Source of the DNA: Paraburkholderia sp.
GTDB taxonomy: Bacteria; Pseudomonadota; Gammaproteobacteria; Burkholderiales; Burkholderiaceae
DNA: 64,000 nt
Direction of reading: 5' to 3'
Assembly: GCF_004298475.1 (NCBI RefSeq)
Contig: NZ_SCRP01000023.1
Location: 61,426-125,425, forward strand
The notes beneath the pieces are model-generated. The model was not told where the DNA came from. It saw only the letters and a program-made list of their open reading frames with translations, and did not search any database. Below, piece after piece: positions 33,996-59,640 of this stretch. Within the stretch, counting starts at the first letter, position 1, and each line of letters begins with the position of its first letter. A program made the position numbers and the translations under genes.

Positions 33996-35254
33996 TCCAT
34001 GTTCTCGGTAAGCAACAGCTCCGCCGCCTTGCGGCCGGAGCGAATCGCGCCTTCAATCGTTGCGGGCAGACCGGTAGCCGTCCAGTCGCCTGCGAGCATC
34101 AGGTTGTTCCAGCGTGTGCGCGTCCCCGGACGGCGCAGTTCTTCATCGGGCACCGCCGCGAACGTCGCGTGCGGCGCCGCCACGACCTGCCACGGCGGCA
34201 GGCGGCCGGCCGGCAGCGACGCCGCCGCGGCCACGTCCTCCCAGACCTTGAGCGCAAGCGTCTCGGCGGGCAGGTCGAGCACGGCGTGCGCATCGTGGAT
34301 CGTCGCCGAAAGGCGCCCTTGCGCCGCGACCAGCCAGCTGGCCGCGCCATTCACGAACGCCATCGGCGACGCAAGCCCGTGCGGCGGCTCGACGGCGAAG
34401 TGCACGGTGGCCATCGCCGTGAAGCGCTGCGGCGTCTGGATCGCGGGCACGAGCGCAGCGGCCGCCTTCGACGTCACGGCCAGCACGACGGATTCGTCGG
34501 GGCCGAGCGCGATGCGACCGGTGGCGAAATCGAGTGCGACGACGCGGCGCGCCGCGTCGTCGTACGCGATCTCGAGGAGCGGCGAACCGAGCCGGATCGC
34601 CGCGCCGCCGTGTTGCAGCATGCGCAGCGCCGGATCGACGAAGGCGCTCGACAAACCGTTTTTGGCAACCAGCGGGCGAAACGCGTCGCCACCGGCCGTG
34701 AGCGCCTCGCGCAGCAGGTTGGCCGCGAGTTCGGCGCTCGCCGCGCGCGGCTCGACGTTGAGCCCCGCCAGAAAGAACGGGCGCAGCAGCCTGTCCCACA
34801 GCGTACCGTCGCAGCGCATGGTCTGCGCGAGCGTGCGTCCCGGCTTCGCGAACAAAAGCGGCAGCAGGCCGAGATAGTCCGCGGTCTTCGTACCCGGCAC
34901 GCGTGCGTTCGCATCGCCGATCCAGAACGGCACGCGGCCGCGCGAAAACCGCACGGCCCAGCGCGCGCGCGACGCGAGATCCATGAACGCGAAGCCCGGA
35001 TCGGCCGGACCGGCCAGCGCCTCGGCCGCGCCGATCGTGCGCGCATATTCGAGTGTCTGCGCATGCCCCGCCAGCACCAGATGATTGCCGCAGTCGAGCG
35101 TCGCGCCGAGCGTGCTGTCGTAAAACGAGCGGCACCGCCCGCCTGCCTGCCCGGCCGCCTCGTAGAGCGCGACCTGCACCCCGCGCCGCTGAAGCCCGAC
35201 CGCCGCCGCGAGGCCTGCGAGCCCGGCGCCGATGACGTGGACGAGCCTTGGCAT
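33986..35254 (-). CDS. hpnE: Hydroxysqualene dehydroxylase / squalene-associated FAD desaturase HpnE
   Basis: A 422-residue FAD-dependent amine-oxidase-fold protein: VHVIGAGLAGLAAAVGLQRRGVQVALYEA, AGGRCRSF, LDCGNHLVLAGH, and C-terminal LAGDWTATGLPATIEGAIRSGRKAAELL. With HpnD (and HpnC, not found here) it converts farnesyl diphosphate via presqualene diphosphate and hydroxysqualene to squalene. ATG 35254 overlaps the hpnD stop by one base. A much longer frame continues upstream but is a shadow of hpnD. Confidence 0.93.
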   Translation of the reverse strand: MPRLVHVIGAGLAGLAAAVGLQRRGVQVALYEAAGQAGGRCRSFYDSTLGATLDCGNHLVLAGHAQTLEYARTIGAAEALAGPADPGFAFMDLASRARWAVRFSRGRVPFWIGDANARVPGTKTADYLGLLPLLFAKPGRTLAQTMRCDGTLWDRLLRPFFLAGLNVEPRAASAELAANLLREALTAGGDAFRPLVAKNGLSSAFVDPALRMLQHGGAAIRLGSPLLEIAYDDAARRVVALDFATGRIALGPDESVVLAVTSKAAAALVPAIQTPQRFTAMATVHFAVEPPHGLASPMAFVNGAASWLVAAQGRLSATIHDAHAVLDLPAETLALKVWEDVAAAASLPAGRLPPWQVVAAPHATFAAVPDEELRRPGTRTRWNNLMLAGDWTATGLPATIEGAIRSGRKAAELLLTENMECR

Positions 35255-36105
35255 CAGAACAGCGCGTAGCGCATGACGATCCACATCAGGCGCGCTTTGG
35301 GTTTGGTGACTTTCGTGCGCGGCAGATCGAAGCCGCGATCGAGCGTTCGCTCGAGCAGCACGCGATACACGCCCGACATGATGCGCGGCGCTTTCACCTG
35401 CGCGCGCGGCGCGGCATCCATGATCGCGTCGGCTTGCGCGAAATGCTGCTGCGCGCGCTCGGCGAGCGTCGCGCATACGCGCGGCAGCGACGGATCGGCG
35501 GCGATCTGGTGCGGGCTCGTCGCCGCGATGCCCTCGCGCGCGAGCAATTCGAGCGGCAGGTAGCTCCGGTTGATGCCCGCGTCCTCGTCGATGTCGCGCA
35601 GGATGTTCGTGAGCTGCAGCGCGCGGCCGAGATGATGCGACAGCCTGCGGCCCGGCTCCTCGGCCATCCCGAATATCCTCACCGATAGACGGCCGGCCGC
35701 GCTCGCCACGCGGTCGCAGTAGAGGTCGAGCGTGGCTTCGTTGGGCGCGCAAATGTCTTCGGCGGCGTCCATCGCCATGCCGTCGATCATCGCGTGGAAA
35801 TCTTCGCGTTGCAGGGCAAACGTATGAATGTGGCGCGTCAGCGCCGCGAGCGCGGCGGGCGGCGTGCCTGCGTAGCACGCGTCGATGTCGGCGCGCCAGC
35901 GGTCGAGCCCCGCCGAGCGCTCGGCGCGCGGCAGCGCGCTGTCCGCGATGTCGTCCACCGCGCGGCAAAACGCGTAGACCTGGTACATGGCGTCGCGCTG
36001 CGCCGCTGGCAGGATACGCATCGCCAGATAAAACGAGCTGCCGGACGAAGCGGCAGCGGCGTCGATTTGTTGTGTATCGTCCACGACAAGGTTGGAAACG
36101 GCCAA
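35254..36105 (-). CDS. hpnD: Presqualene diphosphate synthase HpnD
   Basis: A 283-residue trans-isoprenyl diphosphate synthase of the squalene/phytoene synthase type. First aspartate motif DDIAD at about residues 52-56 (CRAVDDIADS), second DIDED at about 172-176 (LQLTNILRDIDEDAGINRSYLP). I place the start at TTG 36105 because a GGAG lies 6 bases ahead and the next residues (LAVSNLVVDDTQ) look like a natural N-terminus; the ATG start at 36213 adds unlikely basic residues. It is the first gene of the operon, with the usual partner hpnC missing. Confidence 0.9.
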   Translation of the reverse strand: MAVSNLVVDDTQQIDAAAASSGSSFYLAMRILPAAQRDAMYQVYAFCRAVDDIADSALPRAERSAGLDRWRADIDACYAGTPPAALAALTRHIHTFALQREDFHAMIDGMAMDAAEDICAPNEATLDLYCDRVASAAGRLSVRIFGMAEEPGRRLSHHLGRALQLTNILRDIDEDAGINRSYLPLELLAREGIAATSPHQIAADPSLPRVCATLAERAQQHFAQADAIMDAAPRAQVKAPRIMSGVYRVLLERTLDRGFDLPRTKVTKPKARLMWIVMRYALF

Positions 36106-36323
36106 GACGATCTCCGCTGTGGGGCGCCCGCACAGGGGGCTTTCAGATATTCGGGCCCGCATGGAGCGGGTCGCCCGCGCGCGCGGATTACGCGCGAGGC
36201 AACCGGCACGCAAACGTCCTCATGGGGTGGTTGGCGGCCGGAAACGGGCAAAAGTATAGCAACCTTTGCCTGCCACCGCAGTCTCTGTCCGCCGCAAACG
36301 CGCGGCGAGCCGCGCCGGCGCGC

Positions 36324-44899: not shown

Positions 44900-46252
44900 T
44901 CAAGCTGCGCGCGACTGGCTCAGCGTAAATGCGAGCAGATCGCCGTCGGTCGGCTCACCCCAGGTTTTCCGTGCCAGCCAGTCGAAGAATGCGGTTTCCC
45001 CCAGCTTCGACTCGAGGCCGCGCCGCCGCCAGTCATCGCGCAGATGCGTGCCGAGGCCCGGCAACTCGTCGCTCTCGAACGACTGGCGCGCCAGTTCCCG
45101 CTCCATCTCACCTTGCTCGTCGTACAGCGCACGGGCTTCCTTGCGGCGATACGCCGTGTACTCATCGAGAAGCCGCGCCTTCGGATCGTCCGCGCTCAGT
45201 GCGGCCCCCTTGCCGGCGCCAGCCGGGCCTGAAATCACCGTATCCAGCGGCGGCGCATAGCCCTTCTTGAGCGCATCCTTGAACAGCGCCGCCGCGCTGC
45301 GGACAGGCGGCAGACTCGTACTGCGCATACGCTGCTCCGTGAGCTGGAGAGCAGCGCGAATCCGGTTTTCCTCACTATCGGCGTAGAGCGACTGCGCTTC
45401 CTTCAAAGGAATACCGATCTTCACCATGCGGTCGACGAGCGTGCTGTCGAAGACGTTCGGATGCTCGTCGAGCGCCAGCATGGGTTGCTTGCGCTCGGTG
45501 ACGCGAAACTGGATCTCGGCAACCCGGCGGCCTTCGCGATGTTCGATCAACTCGACGAAGATATTCGTAACCGCATTGACTTCGGCGATGGCGGGCCGAA
45601 GATAGTCGCGCTTGAAATATTTGTATTCGCGCTTGGCCTCGTCGCCAGCCTCGGTATCCGGCGTGCCCGACAGGATCGGCCGCCACCATTCCCACGTTTC
45701 GCGCATCGTGAGATGGCTCGGGTTCGTCAGGTAACGTACGCAGATTTCGTAGAGCGCGAGCCCCGCGCTGCTGCGCAGCTGGCTCTGAAACTGCAGGCTG
45801 AGGCGCGCGTACTGAACAGGATCCAGCAGCTTTTTCTTGATTTTCGGCGCGAACGAGAACTCGACCCAAACGCGTCGCGTGGCTGGATCTTCGAGGATTT
45901 CGGCATCGGCAATCAGCGTTGAAATGCCCCACTTGCGGCCCGGCTTCTGACTCGACGTCCCCTGGCTCCATTCGACCTGCACCGACACCATGCGGCGAAG
46001 GTGTTCCTTCACGAGCGCGGTATCGTTGGAGTCGAACGCCGAATTGGCAACGATGTCGGACAACAGCGCGCGATAGGTATCGCCGGACTCGTCCGCCTGC
46101 TGGGCCACCGCGAGCAGCACGTTGAACAGCTTGCGGGTCAGCAGCGTGATCTTGCCGCTCTTCGGCTGAATCGCAATCGCCTCGACGGCCTTGCGCAATT
46201 CTGCCGAGCTGGGGCTTACCACATCGGTTTTTTTCACGCGCTTCGTGGCCAT
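44900..46252 (-). CDS. repA: Replication initiator RepA (Rep_3-like) of the secondary replicon
   Basis: A 450-residue initiator with two winged-helix regions of the Rep_3/RepB type: LTLLTRKLFNVLLAVAQQ (helix-turn-helix entry), LYEICVRYLTNPSHLTMRETWEWWRPIL, and YKYFKRDYLRPAIAEVNAVTNIFVELIEHREGRRVAEIQFRV, the classic C-terminal winged helix of iteron-binding proteins. A further 150 residues at the C-terminus, ending in a conserved-looking LGETAFFDWLARKTWGEP block, are a Burkholderia-type extension. It should bind the iterons that begin 122 bases upstream of its start, driving initiation and probably repressing its own promoter. Confidence 0.93.
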   Translation of the reverse strand: MATKRVKKTDVVSPSSAELRKAVEAIAIQPKSGKITLLTRKLFNVLLAVAQQADESGDTYRALLSDIVANSAFDSNDTALVKEHLRRMVSVQVEWSQGTSSQKPGRKWGISTLIADAEILEDPATRRVWVEFSFAPKIKKKLLDPVQYARLSLQFQSQLRSSAGLALYEICVRYLTNPSHLTMRETWEWWRPILSGTPDTEAGDEAKREYKYFKRDYLRPAIAEVNAVTNIFVELIEHREGRRVAEIQFRVTERKQPMLALDEHPNVFDSTLVDRMVKIGIPLKEAQSLYADSEENRIRAALQLTEQRMRSTSLPPVRSAAALFKDALKKGYAPPLDTVISGPAGAGKGAALSADDPKARLLDEYTAYRRKEARALYDEQGEMERELARQSFESDELPGLGTHLRDDWRRRGLESKLGETAFFDWLARKTWGEPTDGDLLAFTLSQSRAA

Positions 46253-46373
46253 GCGTCGGGTCGAGGAGTGATTTTCGCGAAAGGATACCGCCTGTGGTGA
46301 TAGGCGTCTATAGGGTCGCTCTCACCGTTGCCGGTGATGCACACGCGCCGCGCGCAACTCACCGCCAGGCGAT

Positions 46374-47791
46374 CCCGAAAAGGCTCACTCATCGCAGCAG
46401 AGCGAGTTCCACGCAAACGTTATGTGCCGTGCGATCCGCACGAATGGCCCCGATCGTGCAGTCAAACAAGCTCGCGAGACGGCTCCCGTATCGTCTCACC
46501 GCAAAAAAATTTGAGGTGCTCCGGCTTCGCATGCGGAATGCCATCCGGGCGCTCCCCCTTGACGCGCTCAGGATGAAGGCAACCCAACGCCTGCGAACGG
46601 GCGCTGCGCCGGCTGCAAATCCGATGGCAAGTGCATCAGACACCGCAACGATGCCTGCGCAAAGTCGTTGATTGTGGCTTCGGACCCGGCATTTTCAATC
46701 GGCATGGTCCGTCAATGCTTCGCACCCGCGTATCACAGGACCCGTCAGGATCGGAGCGGCAAGACTCGAAAGGGCGCTCACCCGTCGGCGTTCGTCACAC
46801 GGCACGCTCTTGCATCTCCCGAAAAACCTCACCGATAGCGTGCGGCCGATGCCGTTCTCATGCTGCCTGCGGCCATTTAGAGGCTGGAAAGCGTCGAATC
46901 AGGCTCCCGAAAATGCTCACCCTTACCAAGATTGGACACCCTGCGGGCACCCGGCAGATACCCAACCGCCACCGGGAAGCCGCCGATCGCAAGCCCCCGG
47001 AAAAGCTCACCGTTAGCCACGCCGCCGGGAAAAAGCCAATGGATTCCGAGGCTTAACCATGTGCCGACGTGGCTCGCATTGCTGTCCGCCTCATCCTGAA
47101 AAAGCTCACCTTTCGGCTGGAATCTGGCGGAAAGCCGGCAACCTGTCTGCCGCGGCAGGTTCCGGTCACACCTCCCGAAAAGGCTCACCTCATGAGATGG
47201 TGCATTTCCGGTTAGCGCTCCCCGAGGTCCTGTGTGTCGCCAGTTTCAGGTGAGTGAACACCAACTCTCTCCTGAAAAGACTCACCTCTACAGGGCGAAC
47301 GCGCCAAAAAAGCCCCCGAAAAACCTCACCATACAGCGGCGATCCACCGCCGGTGCCCAGACACAGCAGCAACATGCCTGACGATAGCTGCCCCCCCTCG
47401 CTCCCGAAAAGACTCACCTAAAGCGTCCCTGAGGCCCCGCCAGGCCTTAAATGTGCCTCCAGCCCCTGAAAAATCTCACCTCAGGAAGCGGATTTGTCCC
47501 GATTCATCTCACCTGGGCCTCCGAAGCCGCCTTTTTCTACCCGAAAATCGTCCCGACACCCGTTCCTGAATTCGCTCACCGTTGCAATTCAGGAAACATT
47601 GAACACGCGCGCGGTGGCGCGGGGGGCGCCGCGATATCCGCTCCCGTAATTTCTCACCGTTGCACCAGTGATGAAAATCCGCTGCTCCCGAACCCGCTCA
47701 CGTCCGTTCCCGAAGCGGCTCACCGGCCTCCCCGAAACCCATCACTGCCGCATCCCGCAGTCCCTCACCCTACATCCCGTAAAGCTTCACC
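46374..47791 (+). repeat. Iteron array, 19 copies of CCYGAAAANNCTCACC-type 16-mer
   Basis: All copies point the same way. Starts: 46374, 46485, 46818, 46906, 46996, 47095, 47174, 47271, 47315, 47403, 47465, 47498, 47565, 47643, 47687, 47709, 47731, 47754, 47776. Copies from 46818 to 47465 keep the CC(C/T)GAAAA plus CTCACC form; those from 47498 on keep CC(C/T)G and mostly CTCACC but vary in the middle. The last five sit 22, 22, 23 and 22 bases apart, and most other gaps (44, 88, 88, 99, 33, 111) are multiples of 11, so sites stay on one helix face. These should be RepA binding sites. Confidence 0.9.
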
Positions 47792-47819
47792 CGAGTGCGC
47801 TGAAACCCTTGCCTGGTAA

Positions 47820-48175
47820 GGGTTTGCCAAGGCGTTAACGTTTTTAACAGGTATCAAGGGTGTTTACTTTTATTACTCTCAAGCACGTCTACCCCGCGCG
47901 TTTCCCGCAAAATCCCCAACAAACGGGCTCATTCGACGACCCGAACCCCGCCAGCCGCCGTGAAACACCATCCAAAAATTCCACCACAACAAAAAATCAC
48001 ATATTTACAGTCACTTATGAAACAAACCTCACTTTGTTTCACGATGCTGCCCTATTCGGGGATAGAGCAGGCGGTGCAAAGAAGCAAATCTTGCCGAATT
48101 GCAGCCCGTGTACGACGCTACCCGTCAGTTCGTAGCGATTAATACGTAATCTGTTATTATTTACGCGTTGCCGTC
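47820..48175. other. AT-rich segment, candidate DNA unwinding element
   Basis: Directly beyond the last iteron the base composition falls sharply, with runs such as GTTTTTAACAGG, TTTACTTTTATTACTC, CAACAAAAAATCACATATTTACAG and TTATTATTTACG. In iteron replicons the melting region sits at one end of the array, which fits. No gene is supported within it. Confidence 0.65.
48018..48041. promoter_or_regulatory. Inverted repeat upstream of the KfrA-like gene
   Basis: A 9-bp perfect inverted repeat, TGAAACAAA / TTTGTTTCA, with spacer CCTCAC, 150 bases ahead of the KfrA-like start. It is a candidate operator for that DNA-binding protein, or part of the origin melting region. Confidence 0.5.
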
Positions 48176-48191
48176 CAATCGCGAGATAACA

Positions 48192-49397
48192 ATGATGCAA
48201 GAGGAAGATCGCCAGAATCTGCGTGACGAACTGGAAACACTCCGCAAAGACGGGGCGCGGCGACAGGAGCTGTCGCTTCATGCATGCAAGCGCCTCTTTT
48301 TCGATTTCGGCATTCGTCCATCCATGGCCACGGTTCGCGACCTGACGCAAACCGGCAGCGCAAGCGACATTCCAAAAGATATCGAAGTGTTCTGGCAGCG
48401 GATCCGCACGGCCTCACGCGTACGCGTCGGCGTAGGCGCCATTCCGCCGATACTCGAAGAGCGTGCGGGCGAACTGCTCGGCGCCCTCTTCCAGGAAGCG
48501 CAGACACTCGCACATCAGGCGCTCGAAACCGAACGCGCCGATCTCGAAACCGGCAAGCATCACGCTGAACAAGCCGTCCGGGATGCCGACGCGCGGCGCG
48601 CCGCGGCCGATGAAATGCTTCAGCGCAGTGAAGCCCGGACCGAAACGGCCTGGGCAAAGGTTCGCGAACTCGAGAGTCAGCTTGCGGCAACGTCGGCGCA
48701 CGGGGCCGTCCATCACGATAGCCTCCAGGCCACCGCACGGCGACTGGAGGCAGAAAACGAAATCCTGACGAAGCGGCTCGACGTCGAACAGACCACCAAT
48801 GCAGGGCTGCGCGATCGTATCGACGCCCTTCATGCGGATCTGCGCACAAGTACCGAGCACTACGCCCAGCAGATCAAGGATGCACTCGCGGAAGCCGAAC
48901 GGCGGGTCAAGCCCATGCTGGTCGAACTCGATTCGTTACGCACGATGTCTTCGACGTGGCAGGCGGCCCAGCGCGATGCCAGCAAAAAAGAGTTCGATTT
49001 CATCCAGCAGCTCGCGACCGCCAAAGCGCGGGCGGATCGTCTCGACGCGCTGCTACGTGAGCGTTCCGATGAAGTCGACGTCCTCACGCGCCAGGTTACC
49101 GGGTTGCGCGGACTGCAAGGTGTCGATGCATCGGTCGCCCAGGTGCTGTGCGCACTCGCCAGCGCGGGTCGACTCAGCGACGAAGAATTCACGCAGCTGG
49201 GCACCGTCGTTGACGGATATGTCAGCTTGCCGGCGCGCTGTCCGAAGTGCCGGGAGGGTGAGCCTGAACTTTCCCAGGTTGATAACCGTTATGAACTCTC
49301 GTGTCCGGAATGCGAGCACACGTCCGGTGCGGGCGGCTCGCGTCTCGAAGCCGTCAGCCGTTTCATGTCTGGAAAGGCGGTGCCCGGCGCTGCTTGA
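48192..49397 (+). CDS. KfrA-like DNA-binding coiled-coil protein with C-terminal zinc ribbon
   Basis: A 401-residue protein. Residues about 20-100 (ACKRLFFDFGIRPSMATVRDLTQTGSASDIPKDIEVFW) are a KfrA_N-type DNA-binding domain, as in plasmid replication regions. Residues about 110-330 form a long alpha-helical coiled coil rich in Ala, Glu, Arg and Gln. Residues 350-385 contain CPKC and CPEC separated by about 20 residues, a zinc-ribbon pattern not found in plasmid KfrA as far as I know. KfrA proteins organise or stabilise plasmids and repress their own promoter. ATG 48192 is chosen over TTG 48168. An inverted iteron begins at the base after its stop codon. Confidence 0.8.
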   Translation: MMQEEDRQNLRDELETLRKDGARRQELSLHACKRLFFDFGIRPSMATVRDLTQTGSASDIPKDIEVFWQRIRTASRVRVGVGAIPPILEERAGELLGALFQEAQTLAHQALETERADLETGKHHAEQAVRDADARRAAADEMLQRSEARTETAWAKVRELESQLAATSAHGAVHHDSLQATARRLEAENEILTKRLDVEQTTNAGLRDRIDALHADLRTSTEHYAQQIKDALAEAERRVKPMLVELDSLRTMSSTWQAAQRDASKKEFDFIQQLATAKARADRLDALLRERSDEVDVLTRQVTGLRGLQGVDASVAQVLCALASAGRLSDEEFTQLGTVVDGYVSLPARCPKCREGEPELSQVDNRYELSCPECEHTSGAGGSRLEAVSRFMSGKAVPGAA

Positions 49398-49448
49398 GGT
49401 GAGCGGTTACGGGAACCGGGGTGACGATAGGAAGTGAGTTTTTACGGG
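49398..49448 (-). repeat. Two inverted iterons between the KfrA-like and recombinase-like genes
   Basis: GGTGAGCGGTTACGGG (49398-49413) and AGTGAGTTTTTACGGG (49433-49448) are reverse complements of the iteron pattern (CCCGTAACCGCTCACC and CCCGTAAAAACTCACT). Start to start they are 35 bases apart. They face the main array across the KfrA-like gene and lie in the short gap between two convergent genes. Confidence 0.8.
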
Positions 49449-49482
49449 AGCCGCCGCGGTGCCTGGGTTGACGCGTGCCTTG

Positions 49483-51754: not shown

Positions 51755-51837
51755 TATTTCCCGTAAAAGCTAACAGCGACTATAGCAAACCCGGCAAACC
51801 CGGCAAACCGCGGCCAGCCCGGACAGGAGGACGACTG

Positions 51838-56236: not shown

Positions 56237-56296
56237 GGTGAGCTTATCCGGGAGCAGCGGGTTCACGTAGCGTGCGCAATGGTGAGCTTGTTCGGG
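56237..56296 (-). repeat. Two inverted distal iterons upstream of a hypothetical gene
   Basis: GGTGAGCTTATCCGGG (56237-56252) and GGTGAGCTTGTTCGGG (56281-56296) are reverse complements of the iteron pattern (CCCGGATAAGCTCACC, CCCGAACAAGCTCACC). They start exactly 44 bases apart, four helical turns. They lie in a 340-base gap, 8.5 kb from the end of the main array. Confidence 0.85.
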
Positions 56297-56454
56297 ATTA
56301 ACACCTTAAACACCTTAAACCTGCCCGTACACGAATTCGCGCTATAGTGATTTGCGCTGCGATGCAGCAGGGGTGTTTCGCGACGATCCAAAAAGATCGC
56401 ATGCGGCACCCGATTCCCGCCGCGCGCCTGCGCGGTTCGCACCGGAGTCGTGAA

Positions 56455-57474
56455 ATGGGCATTCTCGACAGACTATGGCGGCCGCGACCCAAGGCGATAC
56501 CGGTCACGCCCCAGATTAGCGCGTTGATCGAGCGTCTGATGGTGTTGAGCCCGGCGCTGAAGCTCGCAGATGGTTTTCAGGAGCGAGTCACGCCTGTGCT
56601 GGCCTGCTCGCTCGATTACGTGCGCGGCCTGGTGAACGAGTTGCCGCACGCGCGCGTGGCAAACGCAGCCGCCTGGCTCGACGACCCGTATATTCACGCG
56701 TTTTTCGCGGCGCCTGACGAGGTCGCGCACATTCTCAGCCGTTCGGCCGAAATGCACGTGTGGTTCGACAGCCACCCGCTCGCGCGCGAAGCCTACGCCG
56801 TGCTCAGCATGGCCATGAGCGAGCGCCGCGTGTTTGGCGTCGAGCAGATCGGCGACGTGGTGCACGCCGACGTCGCGCGCACGACGCTCAGTTTCGACGA
56901 TCATCAGGTGCGACTCTGCGGCGAGTCGGAGGACGATCTGCGCGAGCAGATCGTGCAGCGCGTGGTCGAGCAGATTGCGCTTGAAGGTCTTGCGCAGATC
57001 GGCGCTGACGAGTCGCGTCGCGATGCGCTCCTGCAAGACCGCGCGCTGTTGAAGACGCGGCTGCAGTTGCTGACGCGCCAGGGCGCGGGCACACACAAGA
57101 TGCTCGGTGAGCGCGCATCGGCGAACGCGGCGCAACGCATCGGACTGGAGGCCGAGATCGAGGCCAACGCGCGCGCACTGGACGCGCTCGGCCTGCAGAC
57201 CGATGCGCTCGCACGCGACCTCGACGTAATCTGCGATGTGCTCGGTCATCCGGCACGGCACACGAACGTCGAGATGAAGCGTATCCGGCTGAATGCGATG
57301 AACGTGGTGATCGAGGCAAGCGCCTCGCACGACAGCGCGGAAATCGTCTTTCCGCTTGCCCGGCTGCCCGCGAGTCCGCTGGGCGAGCGGGCGTTTTCGC
57401 TGATTCGTTTCGCGCGCACCGATCTCGTGCCGCTGCCAACCGTACTCGACGAGGACAGCCATTTCATGATCTGA
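56455..57474 (+). CDS. Hypothetical protein flanked by iterons
   Basis: A 339-residue soluble protein, helical with two halves. The first (SALIERLMVLSPALKLADGFQERVTPVLACSLDYVRGLVNELPHARV ... FFAAPDEVAHILSRSAEMHVWF) is followed by a coiled-coil-like stretch (RRDALLQDRALLKTRLQLL ... LEAEIEANARALDALGLQTDALARDLD). No family recognised. ATG 56455 has a CGGAG site 8 bases upstream. The gene stands alone with inverted iterons on both sides, so RepA binding could influence it. No evidence ties it to replication beyond position. Confidence 0.75.
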   Translation: MGILDRLWRPRPKAIPVTPQISALIERLMVLSPALKLADGFQERVTPVLACSLDYVRGLVNELPHARVANAAAWLDDPYIHAFFAAPDEVAHILSRSAEMHVWFDSHPLAREAYAVLSMAMSERRVFGVEQIGDVVHADVARTTLSFDDHQVRLCGESEDDLREQIVQRVVEQIALEGLAQIGADESRRDALLQDRALLKTRLQLLTRQGAGTHKMLGERASANAAQRIGLEAEIEANARALDALGLQTDALARDLDVICDVLGHPARHTNVEMKRIRLNAMNVVIEASASHDSAEIVFPLARLPASPLGERAFSLIRFARTDLVPLPTVLDEDSHFMI

Positions 57475-57496
57475 GCCGCGTAACGCTCACGTGAAC

Positions 57497-57809
57497 GGTG
57501 AGCGTTTTCGGGAGCCGTGAGCGCCTGAATTGGCTAAAACAGGCGCAGGCAATATTTCCTGGCAATCCCAGGTTTAGCGAACACAATATTGCTCGAACGC
57601 TGGCGCAACGCGGCTATTCATTGCGCTACGGTTGCGCGAAGTTTGCGTAAAAGCTCGCCTGCCGTCTCAAGGTGAGCTTTTTCGGGAGCGAAGCGAATGT
57701 GCGCTCCGCGCCGCGCGGCAGATGTCGAAATCGCATTTTGGCGGCACCGTAGGCCCATTCGGCGCGTGCGGCGCCAATGCCGGACGCACGAAAGGTGAGC
57801 CTTTTCAGG
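57497..57809 (-). repeat. Three inverted distal iterons downstream of the hypothetical gene
   Basis: GGTGAGCGTTTTCGGG (57497-57512), GGTGAGCTTTTTCGGG (57671-57686) and GGTGAGCCTTTTCAGG (57794-57809) are reverse complements of very good iterons (CCYGAAAANGCTCACC), closer to consensus than many in the main array. Degenerate copies in the other direction face the first two (57476-57491 and 57644-57659), making inverted pairs; AACGCTCAC / GTGAGCGTT at 57482-57506 is a perfect 9-bp inverted repeat. The last site overlaps the end of the modBC gene. Confidence 0.88.
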
Positions 57810-59640
57810 AGTGCGGCGCGGCCCACACTGAAACCCCCTCGCGCCCGATCGAGAAGCGCTGCACACCATCGCTCGTACACGGTGCATCCTCGGCGGCAAT
57901 ATCGAACGCTTCGCCGCCCATATCGATCGTCACGTAGCGGTCGCCATGCCTGAGTGCATGACCGGCTGGCATGCCGGTCCATGCGCCTTCGGGCGTGGCG
58001 CGCAGCGCGCGCGGCGCGACCCGCCACATCACGCGCGTGCCCGGCGCGAAAGGCGTACCGGCGTACGGTAGCCGCAGGCCCTTCGCGGTTTCGATCTCGT
58101 CGCCAGCGCGCACGACACCTTCGCCGACGTTATGCAATCCGAGCAGTTCGGCCACGCGCAGCGACGCGGGCCGCCGGAACACGTCGTTCACGGGACCGGC
58201 CTGCAGCACGCGACCGTGTTCGATGATGAGCACTTCGTCCGCGAGCAGCGCGGCTTCGTCCGGATCGTGCGTGACGATGACGGTCACCGCGTCGATCTCG
58301 CGCTGCAGCGCGCGCAGCGATTGCTGCAGGCGGCGACGGCGCGGCGTGTCGAGCGCGGCGAACGGTTCGTCGAAGAGCAGCAGTTGACTGTGCCGCGTGA
58401 GCGCGCGCGCGAGCGCGACGCGCTGGCGCTGGCCGAACGACAGTGCGTGCGGCAGACGCGCCGTCAGCGTATCGAGGCCGAGATGCGCGAGCCAGTAGCG
58501 CGCGCTCGCGGCATCGGCGCCGACCGGAAATGCCAGTTGCTGCGCGACCGTCATGTGCGGAAAAAGGCCGTAGTCCTGCGGCATGTAACCGATCGGCCGC
58601 CGCTCGGGCGGCAGTGCGCCGAGATTGGCGTCGCCGAGCGTGACCGAACCCGTGTCGTTGTGCTCGAGCCCCGCGATGATGCGCAGCGCGAGCGATTTGC
58701 CCGAACCGGACGGTCCGATGATGGCGAGGCGGCGTGTCTGCGGCCGCCACGTGATGTCGAGGCTGAATGCGCCGAGGCGCCGCTGCGCGTCGAAGGCAAG
58801 CCGAAGGCCGGTCACTGCGCGGGCAGGCGCGGCGCTCGCGAAGCTCGCGGGCTCGTCGCCATTCTCGGAAGGCACGGCGTGCGCGACGCGCGGGCCGCGC
58901 GCGTAGACCGAGAGCACGGCGCAGACGATCGCGATGGCGAGCGTCGGCAACAGGAGCGGCATCATCGCGGGCAGCCCCTGGCCGCCGAACACGACGTAGG
59001 TGTAGACCGGCAGCGAATGCGGATGATAGGCGACCATCATGGTCGCGCCGAACTCGCCGAATGCGCGCAGCCACGCGAGCGCGAGCCCCGCGCGAATGGC
59101 GGGCCAGACGATGGGCAGCGTCACGCGAAAGAAGCGGCTCATGGCGTGATGGCCGAGCGTGGCGGCGACGTCGTCGTAGACGGGCTCGACGGCGGCGAAC
59201 GCCGAGCGCGCGGCGACGATCAGGAACGGCGCGGCAACGAAGGTTTCCGCGAGGACGATGCCTGTGAAGGAATCGGTGAGCCTGCCGCCGAAGAACTGGC
59301 CAATGGTGCTATACGGACCGACCAGAAACAGCAGCAGCACGCCGCTTGTGAGCGGCGGCAATGCAAGGGGTAACTGCACGACAAAGCCGAGCAGCGCGAC
59401 GGCGCGCGAACGCGAGCGCGCGAGCCAGTAGCCGAGCGGCACGCCGCCCGCGAGGATGACGAGCGCGGCGACACTCGCGCTCGTCACCGACACGGCCACG
59501 GCGGACCACGTCGCGCGCCAGTCGACTCCGGCCCAGTCGGCCTGGCCGATCTGCGGGATGCTGGCGACGAACGGTGCGCAGAGATAGACGGCGAGCAGTG
59601 CGCCGAGCCACAGGAGCGGCCGGGCTGCGGGTTGTTTCAC
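57805..59640 (-). CDS. Molybdate/tungstate ABC transporter, permease-ATPase fusion (ModBC)
   Basis: A 611-residue fusion. Residues 1-250 are a ModB/CysT-type permease with about six helices and the EAA-loop RAFGEFGATMMVA. Residues 270-490 form an ABC ATPase with Walker A GPSGSGKS (309-316), signature LSFGQRQ (Gly to Phe relative to LSGGQ), Walker B LLLFDEPFA and switch His in VTHD. Residues about 500-611 hold a TOBE-like regulatory domain (VMWRVAPRALRATPEGAW). With ModA downstream it imports molybdate or tungstate. The N-terminal helix follows directly after ATG 59640. Confidence 0.92.
   Translation of the reverse strand: MKQPAARPLLWLGALLAVYLCAPFVASIPQIGQADWAGVDWRATWSAVAVSVTSASVAALVILAGGVPLGYWLARSRSRAVALLGFVVQLPLALPPLTSGVLLLFLVGPYSTIGQFFGGRLTDSFTGIVLAETFVAAPFLIVAARSAFAAVEPVYDDVAATLGHHAMSRFFRVTLPIVWPAIRAGLALAWLRAFGEFGATMMVAYHPHSLPVYTYVVFGGQGLPAMMPLLLPTLAIAIVCAVLSVYARGPRVAHAVPSENGDEPASFASAAPARAVTGLRLAFDAQRRLGAFSLDITWRPQTRRLAIIGPSGSGKSLALRIIAGLEHNDTGSVTLGDANLGALPPERRPIGYMPQDYGLFPHMTVAQQLAFPVGADAASARYWLAHLGLDTLTARLPHALSFGQRQRVALARALTRHSQLLLFDEPFAALDTPRRRRLQQSLRALQREIDAVTVIVTHDPDEAALLADEVLIIEHGRVLQAGPVNDVFRRPASLRVAELLGLHNVGEGVVRAGDEIETAKGLRLPYAGTPFAPGTRVMWRVAPRALRATPEGAWTGMPAGHALRHGDRYVTIDMGGEAFDIAAEDAPCTSDGVQRFSIGREGVSVWAAPHS

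Follow-up and report, generated by a model that had tools for sequence, protein, structure and literature searches.

Genes and Iteron-Like Sites in the Analyzed Region

The DNA analyzed here, hereafter called the window, is a stretch of 64,000 nucleotides from a Paraburkholderia sp. with a genome of 4.25 Mb, in which it forms the terminal part of contig C35. It carries the replication initiator gene repA of the second replicon together with the origin and a distal group of origin-type sites. Sites were located by scanning with a position weight matrix (PWM) that was built from 16 origin sites. The features are as follows:

44900..46252, minus strand: repA, whose product is the replication initiator (Rep_3 type) for the second replicon (Pfam Rep3_N, E=1.1e-11; Rep3_C, E=5.9e-10)
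46373..47791, all sites on the minus strand: origin array of 17 sites with a score of at least 14 and two weaker ones (47730, 47753), from the PWM scan and chance tests
47815..47885, no strand: AT-rich stretch adjoining the 22-bp-spaced iterons, from direct reading of the sequence
48168..49397, plus strand: kfrA-like gene, across the origin from repA (Pfam KfrA_N, E=1.3e-17)
49398..49449, plus strand: inverted site pair directly 3' of the kfrA-like gene (49398, 49433; PWM scores 20.9 and 21.0)
56237..56297, plus strand: sites 56237 and 56281, forming the distal cluster's upstream half (PWM scan; compared with three species, mean identity of 83% for the sites and 48% outside)
56455..57474, plus strand: uncharacterised gene between the cluster halves, product of 339 aa if translated from the ATG at 56455, no Pfam match
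57497..57810, plus strand: sites 57497, 57671, and 57794, forming the distal cluster's downstream half, with convergent genes on either side (PWM scan; compared with three species, mean identity of 92% for the sites and 43% outside)

The RepA protein yielded 45.8 bits for Rep3_N (cut-off 22.4) and 39.7 bits for Rep3_C (cut-off 21.1), which is in agreement with a Rep_3 winged-helix initiator, as well as a weak match to the pi protein 2NRA (E=0.0044). A RepA orthologue with 92–100% identity was identified in all 58 genus genomes sampled. The direct repeats at 47686, 47708, 47730, 47753, and 47775 show a spacing of 22–23 bp and are located near AT-rich DNA that starts at ~47815, which is the layout of a Rep_3-type iteron replicon, whereby the AT-rich stretch 47815..47885 probably serves as the melting region. 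On the other side of the origin, a further weak site at 51759 lies on the strand opposite to the inverted pair 49398/49433. A site pair, 24 bp apart, likewise follows kfrA in B. cenocepacia (L052 25385/25409).

A preceding sequence-only reading of the region had pointed to five 16-mers at 56237, 56281, 57497, 57671, and 57794 that match the origin sites in inverted orientation. All five were recovered in our scan on the plus strand and thus inverted compared to the origin sites; they flank one uncharacterised gene on both sides, and the first two are spaced by 44 bp, as had been stated. Their PWM scores are 21.5, 24.0, 25.6, 27.5, and 26.0 (in the order of position) compared to 16.6–27.0 for the 16 origin sites, so that the last three, which had been described as closer to the consensus than many origin sites, are also stronger than most of these. 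The claim of an exclusively intergenic location applies to four of the sites and has to be corrected for the fifth one (57794-57810), which runs 6 bp into the end of a convergent ORF (57805-59640). Chance had been regarded as a very unlikely source of these matches, and this agrees with 22 matches with a score of at least 20 in the window (origin included) versus 2 in total in 200 random Markov copies. Similarly, the pattern GGTGAGNNNNTTCRGGA with at most one mismatch occurs 23 times in the window (origin included), whereas 0.08 occurrences are expected from shuffles. The gene 56455..57474 itself is probably a bystander; its named relatives belong to Paraburkholderia, with 95% identity in a forest MAG and 78% in P. 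dinghuensis.

Conservation of the Distal Cluster

In all six relatives that were examined first (L039–L044), two to six sites are located before and three to four sites after the distal gene (score of at least 16), each time in uniform orientation, and no origin-like array was detected within 10 kb on either side of this gene in L040–L044. A search with the protein encoded by 56455..57474 resulted in 51 matches, 17 of them with an identity of at least 62%. Eleven of these 17 were examined as orthologues. In every one, sites flank the gene on both sides and are absent from it, whereby L121 and L122 are probably the same genomes as L040 and L044, and L123 is truncated by a contig end. Three of the remaining matches at this level are the window, G010, and G051 (already covered as the window, L039, and L041), and in three others (G015, G038, and G043) exact matches flank the gene on both sides. 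None of the nine paralogues analyzed (39–51% identical; nine of the 34 lower matches) has a site scoring at least 17 within the gene or up to 2 kb away from it.

The three downstream sites could be aligned in five species; the alignment comprises five of the seven loci, with L043 and L044 left out. The mean identities listed above were determined between the window and L040–L042, for the sites versus the rest of the intergenic DNA, and L039 was dropped because it is too close to the window. Site number and spacing at the window cluster vary between species, and the distance between cluster and origin is ~10 kb in the window genome compared to ~62 kb in G051. A conserved block between the downstream sites (57550-57579) contains an inverted repeat, CCTGG...CCAGG, which is present in all five aligned species and may act as a terminator or as a further binding site.

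Distribution and Orientation of the Sites Across Genomes

With up to three mismatches allowed, there are 50 matches in the genome of the window compared to 14 for the reversed pattern, and a second cluster was found on contig C32. It adds six further sites, with which the array runs beyond the window; we place the end of C32 next to the end of the window because the gene order in G051 puts them together. The six C32 sites correspond to six sites of G051 in number and order, with spacings of 179/189/1342/4303/125 and 175/188/1320/4163/125, respectively. The genome of the window has another pair on contig C23, whose counterpart in G020 adjoins a gene of 55% identity. All 58 genus genomes sampled have 8–29 exact matches of the 25-bit pattern versus 0–2 for the reversed pattern, and in these pattern searches the 16-mer did not turn out to be equally common in unrelated intergenic DNA.

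For positional analysis, 16 genomes were mapped by hand, taken from the genus genomes with listed site positions; for many of the sampled genus and family genomes, the listing gives the match count alone. G015 and G038 are outside this map because their contigs are short, and for G014, G033, G041, and G052 the replicon length was estimated from the last site, such that distances are rough. The map assigns 286 of 308 matches to the repA contig and 22 to other contigs (5 of these in the draft genome G050). Single near-consensus sites off the repA contig, for example G051:C5:68174, G036:C3:320865, and G014:C4:222983, are perhaps situated on third replicons or plasmids. G024 carries repA and the site set on contig C1, which accounts for 6,677,280 bases of a 6.7-Mb genome; it possibly represents a fusion of chromosomes 1 and 2 and, with almost all of the genome on this contig, is uninformative on replicon location. 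In G031, distal clusters (C2:600735-639329) are found ~233–272 kb from the origin, which is likely a rearranged version of the usual set on the kfrA side.

As determined with a home-made ORF picker for sites with a PWM score of at least 20, 95 of 120 distal sites are non-coding, compared to 14.6% of the DNA. The 75 intergenic sites are distributed over convergent (32, with 18.5 expected), tandem (35, with 35.1 expected), and divergent intergenic regions (8, with 21.4 expected). The low number of divergent sites shows that promoters are avoided.

The orientation of the sites depends on their position. Within 2 kb upstream of repA, 100 out of 100 matches in the 16 mapped genomes are on the repA strand, whereas on the kfrA side 85 of the 92 matches at a distance of 2–60 kb are inverted relative to the origin. 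Beyond 60 kb the orientation is mixed, with inverted fractions of 19/29 (60–100 kb), 7/14 (100–200 kb), 8/11 (200–300 kb, one genome), and 3/10 (more than 300 kb). On the repA side, each of the 16 mapped genomes has one match within 30 kb, which lies 9–30 kb out and always reads on the repA strand. In the window this is a perfect pattern match at 35667-35683 inside ORF 35254-36213 (minus strand), which encodes a squalene/phytoene synthase (PF00494, 229.8 bits), with the match in the frame SVRIFGMA; it is probably a coding coincidence. From their similar letters, the repA-side matches of the other genomes are taken to lie in the squalene/phytoene-synthase gene as well. Since the repA-side match in 16 of 16 genomes is explained as coding sequence, we rejected a polarity along both arms and claim it for the kfrA side only.

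A Far Cluster Beside an H-NS-Family Gene

Three Paraburkholderia genomes also have a site pair next to a gene of the H-NS family; the pair reads on the repA strand in two of them (G022 and G027) and on the opposite strand in the third (G020). A larger array, which includes runs with ~23-bp spacing, adjoins homologous genes in B. cenocepacia CP091013 and in six genomes assigned to genus g12; the far cluster is common to two genera. From the shared layout of the far cluster, we infer that g12 is Burkholderia. The genome of the window has a single degenerate site at this locus (C32, L049 4820). Where the neighboring gene was checked, the far cluster is ~72 to 205 kb away from the origin. In B. 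cenocepacia CP091013 it is found at 343.7–347.2 kb, ~205 kb from repA, and no site with a score of at least 14 is present between 260 and 310 kb.

The sequence-only reading was aware of no description of such an element for chromosome 2 of Burkholderia. This has to be amended in part, as the legend of a supplementary table names a second c2 iteron cluster in B. cenocepacia J2315, 140 kb anticlockwise of the origin (Du et al., 2016, PMC4948915). The c2 iteron consensus given in the same source is identical to the motif analyzed here, in reverse complement, and the remote cluster is common to both descriptions; the second c2 cluster of Du et al. (PMC4948915) is probably the H-NS-side cluster. 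The J2315 cluster is treated there in a single legend sentence, which is silent on conservation, orientation, and function (PMC4948915). Nothing further was found: in the open-licence literature on Burkholderia and Paraburkholderia iterons, as far as the accessible text of these sources goes, no other paper is evidently concerned with remote clusters (including PMC6090056, PMC11711613, and PMC8729776).

Site Pairs at Chromosome-3 Origins and Comparison With crtS

In 11 of 13 loci, the initiator gene of chromosome 3 is preceded, at a distance of ~1.6 kb, by a chromosome-2-type site pair with a spacing of 33–34 bp (L107 6510/6543, L108 6244/6278, L109 4182/4215, L110 4033/4066, L111 3909/3942, L113 6372/6405, L114 3629/3662, L115 3263/3297, L117 3228/3261, L118 3308/3341, and L119 3242/3275). 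No such pair was found in the two other loci, L116 (B. multivorans) and L112 (B. multivorans-like). Of seven listed Burkholderia chromosome-3 records, five were included (H40 and H42 were left out), and the 13 loci may repeat species. In six loci it was checked that the pair is separate from the iterons of the chromosome-3 origin itself.

The crtS site of Vibrio, as portrayed in the relevant passages of PMC3937223 and PMC11711613, is located on chromosome 1, is a different kind of site, and stimulates initiation at the secondary chromosome; what it shares with the sites analyzed here is that it is a remote site for the initiator of a secondary chromosome. The likeness to crtS that had been suggested goes no further, since the present sites are iterons on the repA replicon, whereas crtS is a chromosome-1 site of a different kind. 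The clusters are situated on the repA contig and consist of the iteron motif. A search with this motif, which a site of different sequence would escape, revealed no cluster on other contigs, and of the single matches found there, the three inspected individually, from g12 genomes (L099, L100, and L101), are inside ORFs. On these grounds, a crtS-like chromosome-1 site was rejected. It would be conceivable, if unlikely, that RepA is the center of a network in which conserved clusters in the origin region gate re-initiation and the Burkholderia chromosome-3 pair lets chromosome 2 time or restrain chromosome 3, which would constitute a cross-replicon checkpoint with an origin independent of crtS.

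RepA Is the Best Candidate for Binding the Distal Sites

Among 120 family genomes sampled, all 50 with a RepA of at least 78% identity contain matches (1–26; 49 genomes with at least three and one genome with one), while the other 70 comprise 11 with one match and 59 with none. The sequence context was compared for 83 distal and 136 origin sites. Both sets are A-rich before and have a G after the scanned 17-mer, and the base compositions of distal and origin sites correlate with r=0.92 (ten columns of the flanks and four of the scanned motif itself), whereby sites from related genomes are not independent. According to the PWM and the flank comparison, the distal sites are of the same type as the origin sites. 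We attribute them to RepA because of the origin-like motif and flanks, the co-occurrence with RepA, the conservation, and the non-promoter intergenic placement on the repA replicon. Judged from sequence, the best candidate for the binding protein is RepA.

It could also be that another protein, for example the KfrA-like protein encoded at the origin, binds the distal sites and organizes the origin region. A kfrA-like gene is present in seven of the relatives searched, and a site pair directly follows kfrA in the window and in B. cenocepacia. Furthermore, the 66-kb replicon of Candidatus Vallotia cooleyia (L054, L055) has neither a kfrA-like gene nor distal sites, apart from a weak match within repA, which would allow for a role of KfrA at such sites. 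However, this replicon has retained RepA, the par genes, and origin sites that share the motif, and since these sites persist without kfrA, RepA seems to be enough there. In addition, full-length KfrA is 48–59% identical between the genera compared to 86–90% for RepA, with the motif unchanged, and the flanks are alike at origin and distal sites. We therefore regard binding by KfrA or another protein as quite improbable.

Possible Function of the Remote Sites

By analogy with the external RctB sites of V. cholerae chromosome II, the distal sites are probably remote RepA iterons that limit re-initiation by titration. As described in the text of Baek and Chattoraj (2014, PMC3937223), origin-type sites ~40 kb from ori2, distributed across 74 kb of that chromosome, have an inhibitory effect on initiation, for which titration of RctB is the most likely cause. 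In both systems, origin-type sites are found tens of kb from the origin on the secondary chromosome that carries it, with early copying and titration as the proposed mode of action. The present sites differ in that they would belong to a Rep_3-type RepA, have another motif, are more numerous, and form conserved clusters, with one orientation preferred near the origin (PMC3937223 for the Vibrio side). With 286 of the 308 matches in the 16 mapped genomes assigned to the repA contig, they are located on the repA replicon, outside the origin, and, if timing is estimated from distance, near enough to be copied early.

Most clusters lie within ~100 kb of the origin, and because of this proximity they would be duplicated soon after the origin fires. 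Each copying would generate more RepA sites, which would take up free RepA, and in a likely additional step the RepA-bound remote arrays would pair with the origin arrays. Such pairing could account for the site orientation. A second initiation would then be blocked until RepA has accumulated anew, which would amount to an inhibitory titration-type control comparable to datA of E. coli. The remote conserved clusters thereby suggest a brake on the re-replication of chromosome 2. The sequence-only reading had proposed remote initiator sites that may titrate RepA or act by handcuffing; the part concerning the sites is borne out by conservation, footprint, and co-occurrence with RepA, and their action is what we infer.

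Titration is the best explanation, but alone it accounts neither for the orientation, with 85 of 92 kfrA-side matches inverted at 2–60 kb, nor for the fixed positions, and the distance from the origin is variable (~10 kb here, ~62 kb in G051, and ~72 to 205 kb for the far cluster). It fits the small 66-kb replicon of Vallotia cooleyia, which has origin sites but no distal ones. Deletion of a single site in V. cholerae raised oriII/terII but was without growth phenotype, according to the respective passages of PMC3937223. Orientation would be required if the RepA sites acted chiefly by architecture, whereby remote clusters and origin would be bridged into loops (handcuffing or an origin domain). 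The strand preference (100 of 100 matches within 2 kb upstream of repA on the repA strand, 85 of 92 kfrA-side matches inverted at 2–60 kb) is consistent with such an arrangement, as are the six C32 sites, which match G051 in number, order, and near-identical spacing, and the ~23-bp spacing of the far array in g12 and B. cenocepacia. However, site number and spacing of the window cluster vary by species, the orientation is mixed beyond 60 kb, the H-NS-side pair flips strand between G022 and G027 on the one hand and G020 on the other, and looping across such distances is a conjecture here, so that we consider a chiefly architectural role rather unlikely.

That the sites are functionless relics of old origin duplications would be in line with their absence from Vallotia cooleyia and with the one degenerate site at the H-NS-side locus of the genome of the window. 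An identity of 83–92% in the sites versus 43–48% in the DNA around them, together with the retention of the H-NS-side cluster in two genera, makes this very improbable. Finally, the sites might be operators through which RepA or another factor regulates the neighboring genes, given that two of them are situated upstream of the uncharacterised gene 56455..57474 and that the far cluster adjoins an H-NS-family gene. However, divergent DNA is avoided and convergent DNA favored (32 versus 18.5 expected), and three of the five window sites lie between convergent genes. Since the sites are mostly non-coding and avoid promoters, which speaks against transcription control, an operator function is extremely improbable and was rejected on account of the 8 divergent intergenic sites versus 21.4 expected.

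Significance for the Replication of Secondary Chromosomes

Extra iterons beyond the minimal origin also occur in the iteron inc loci of plasmids, for example incA of P1, where they lower the copy number by titration and handcuffing. Such loci adjoin the replication gene, whereas the clusters analyzed here are 2 to ~200 kb away. Already known from the accessible text of earlier work are the V. cholerae precedent and the legend of Du et al. (PMC3937223, PMC4948915). New is a system of several loci, conserved and oriented, in a further chromid lineage, as well as the occurrence of c2-type pairs at chromosome-3 origins. To our knowledge, detailed insight into the once-per-cycle replication of secondary chromosomes comes essentially from Vibrio. 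If the titration reading is true, a second chromid lineage, Burkholderia-Paraburkholderia with its Rep_3-type initiator, would also employ external initiator sites, and the precise, deletable loci would offer a test of titration as a general route from a plasmid replicon to a chromosome.
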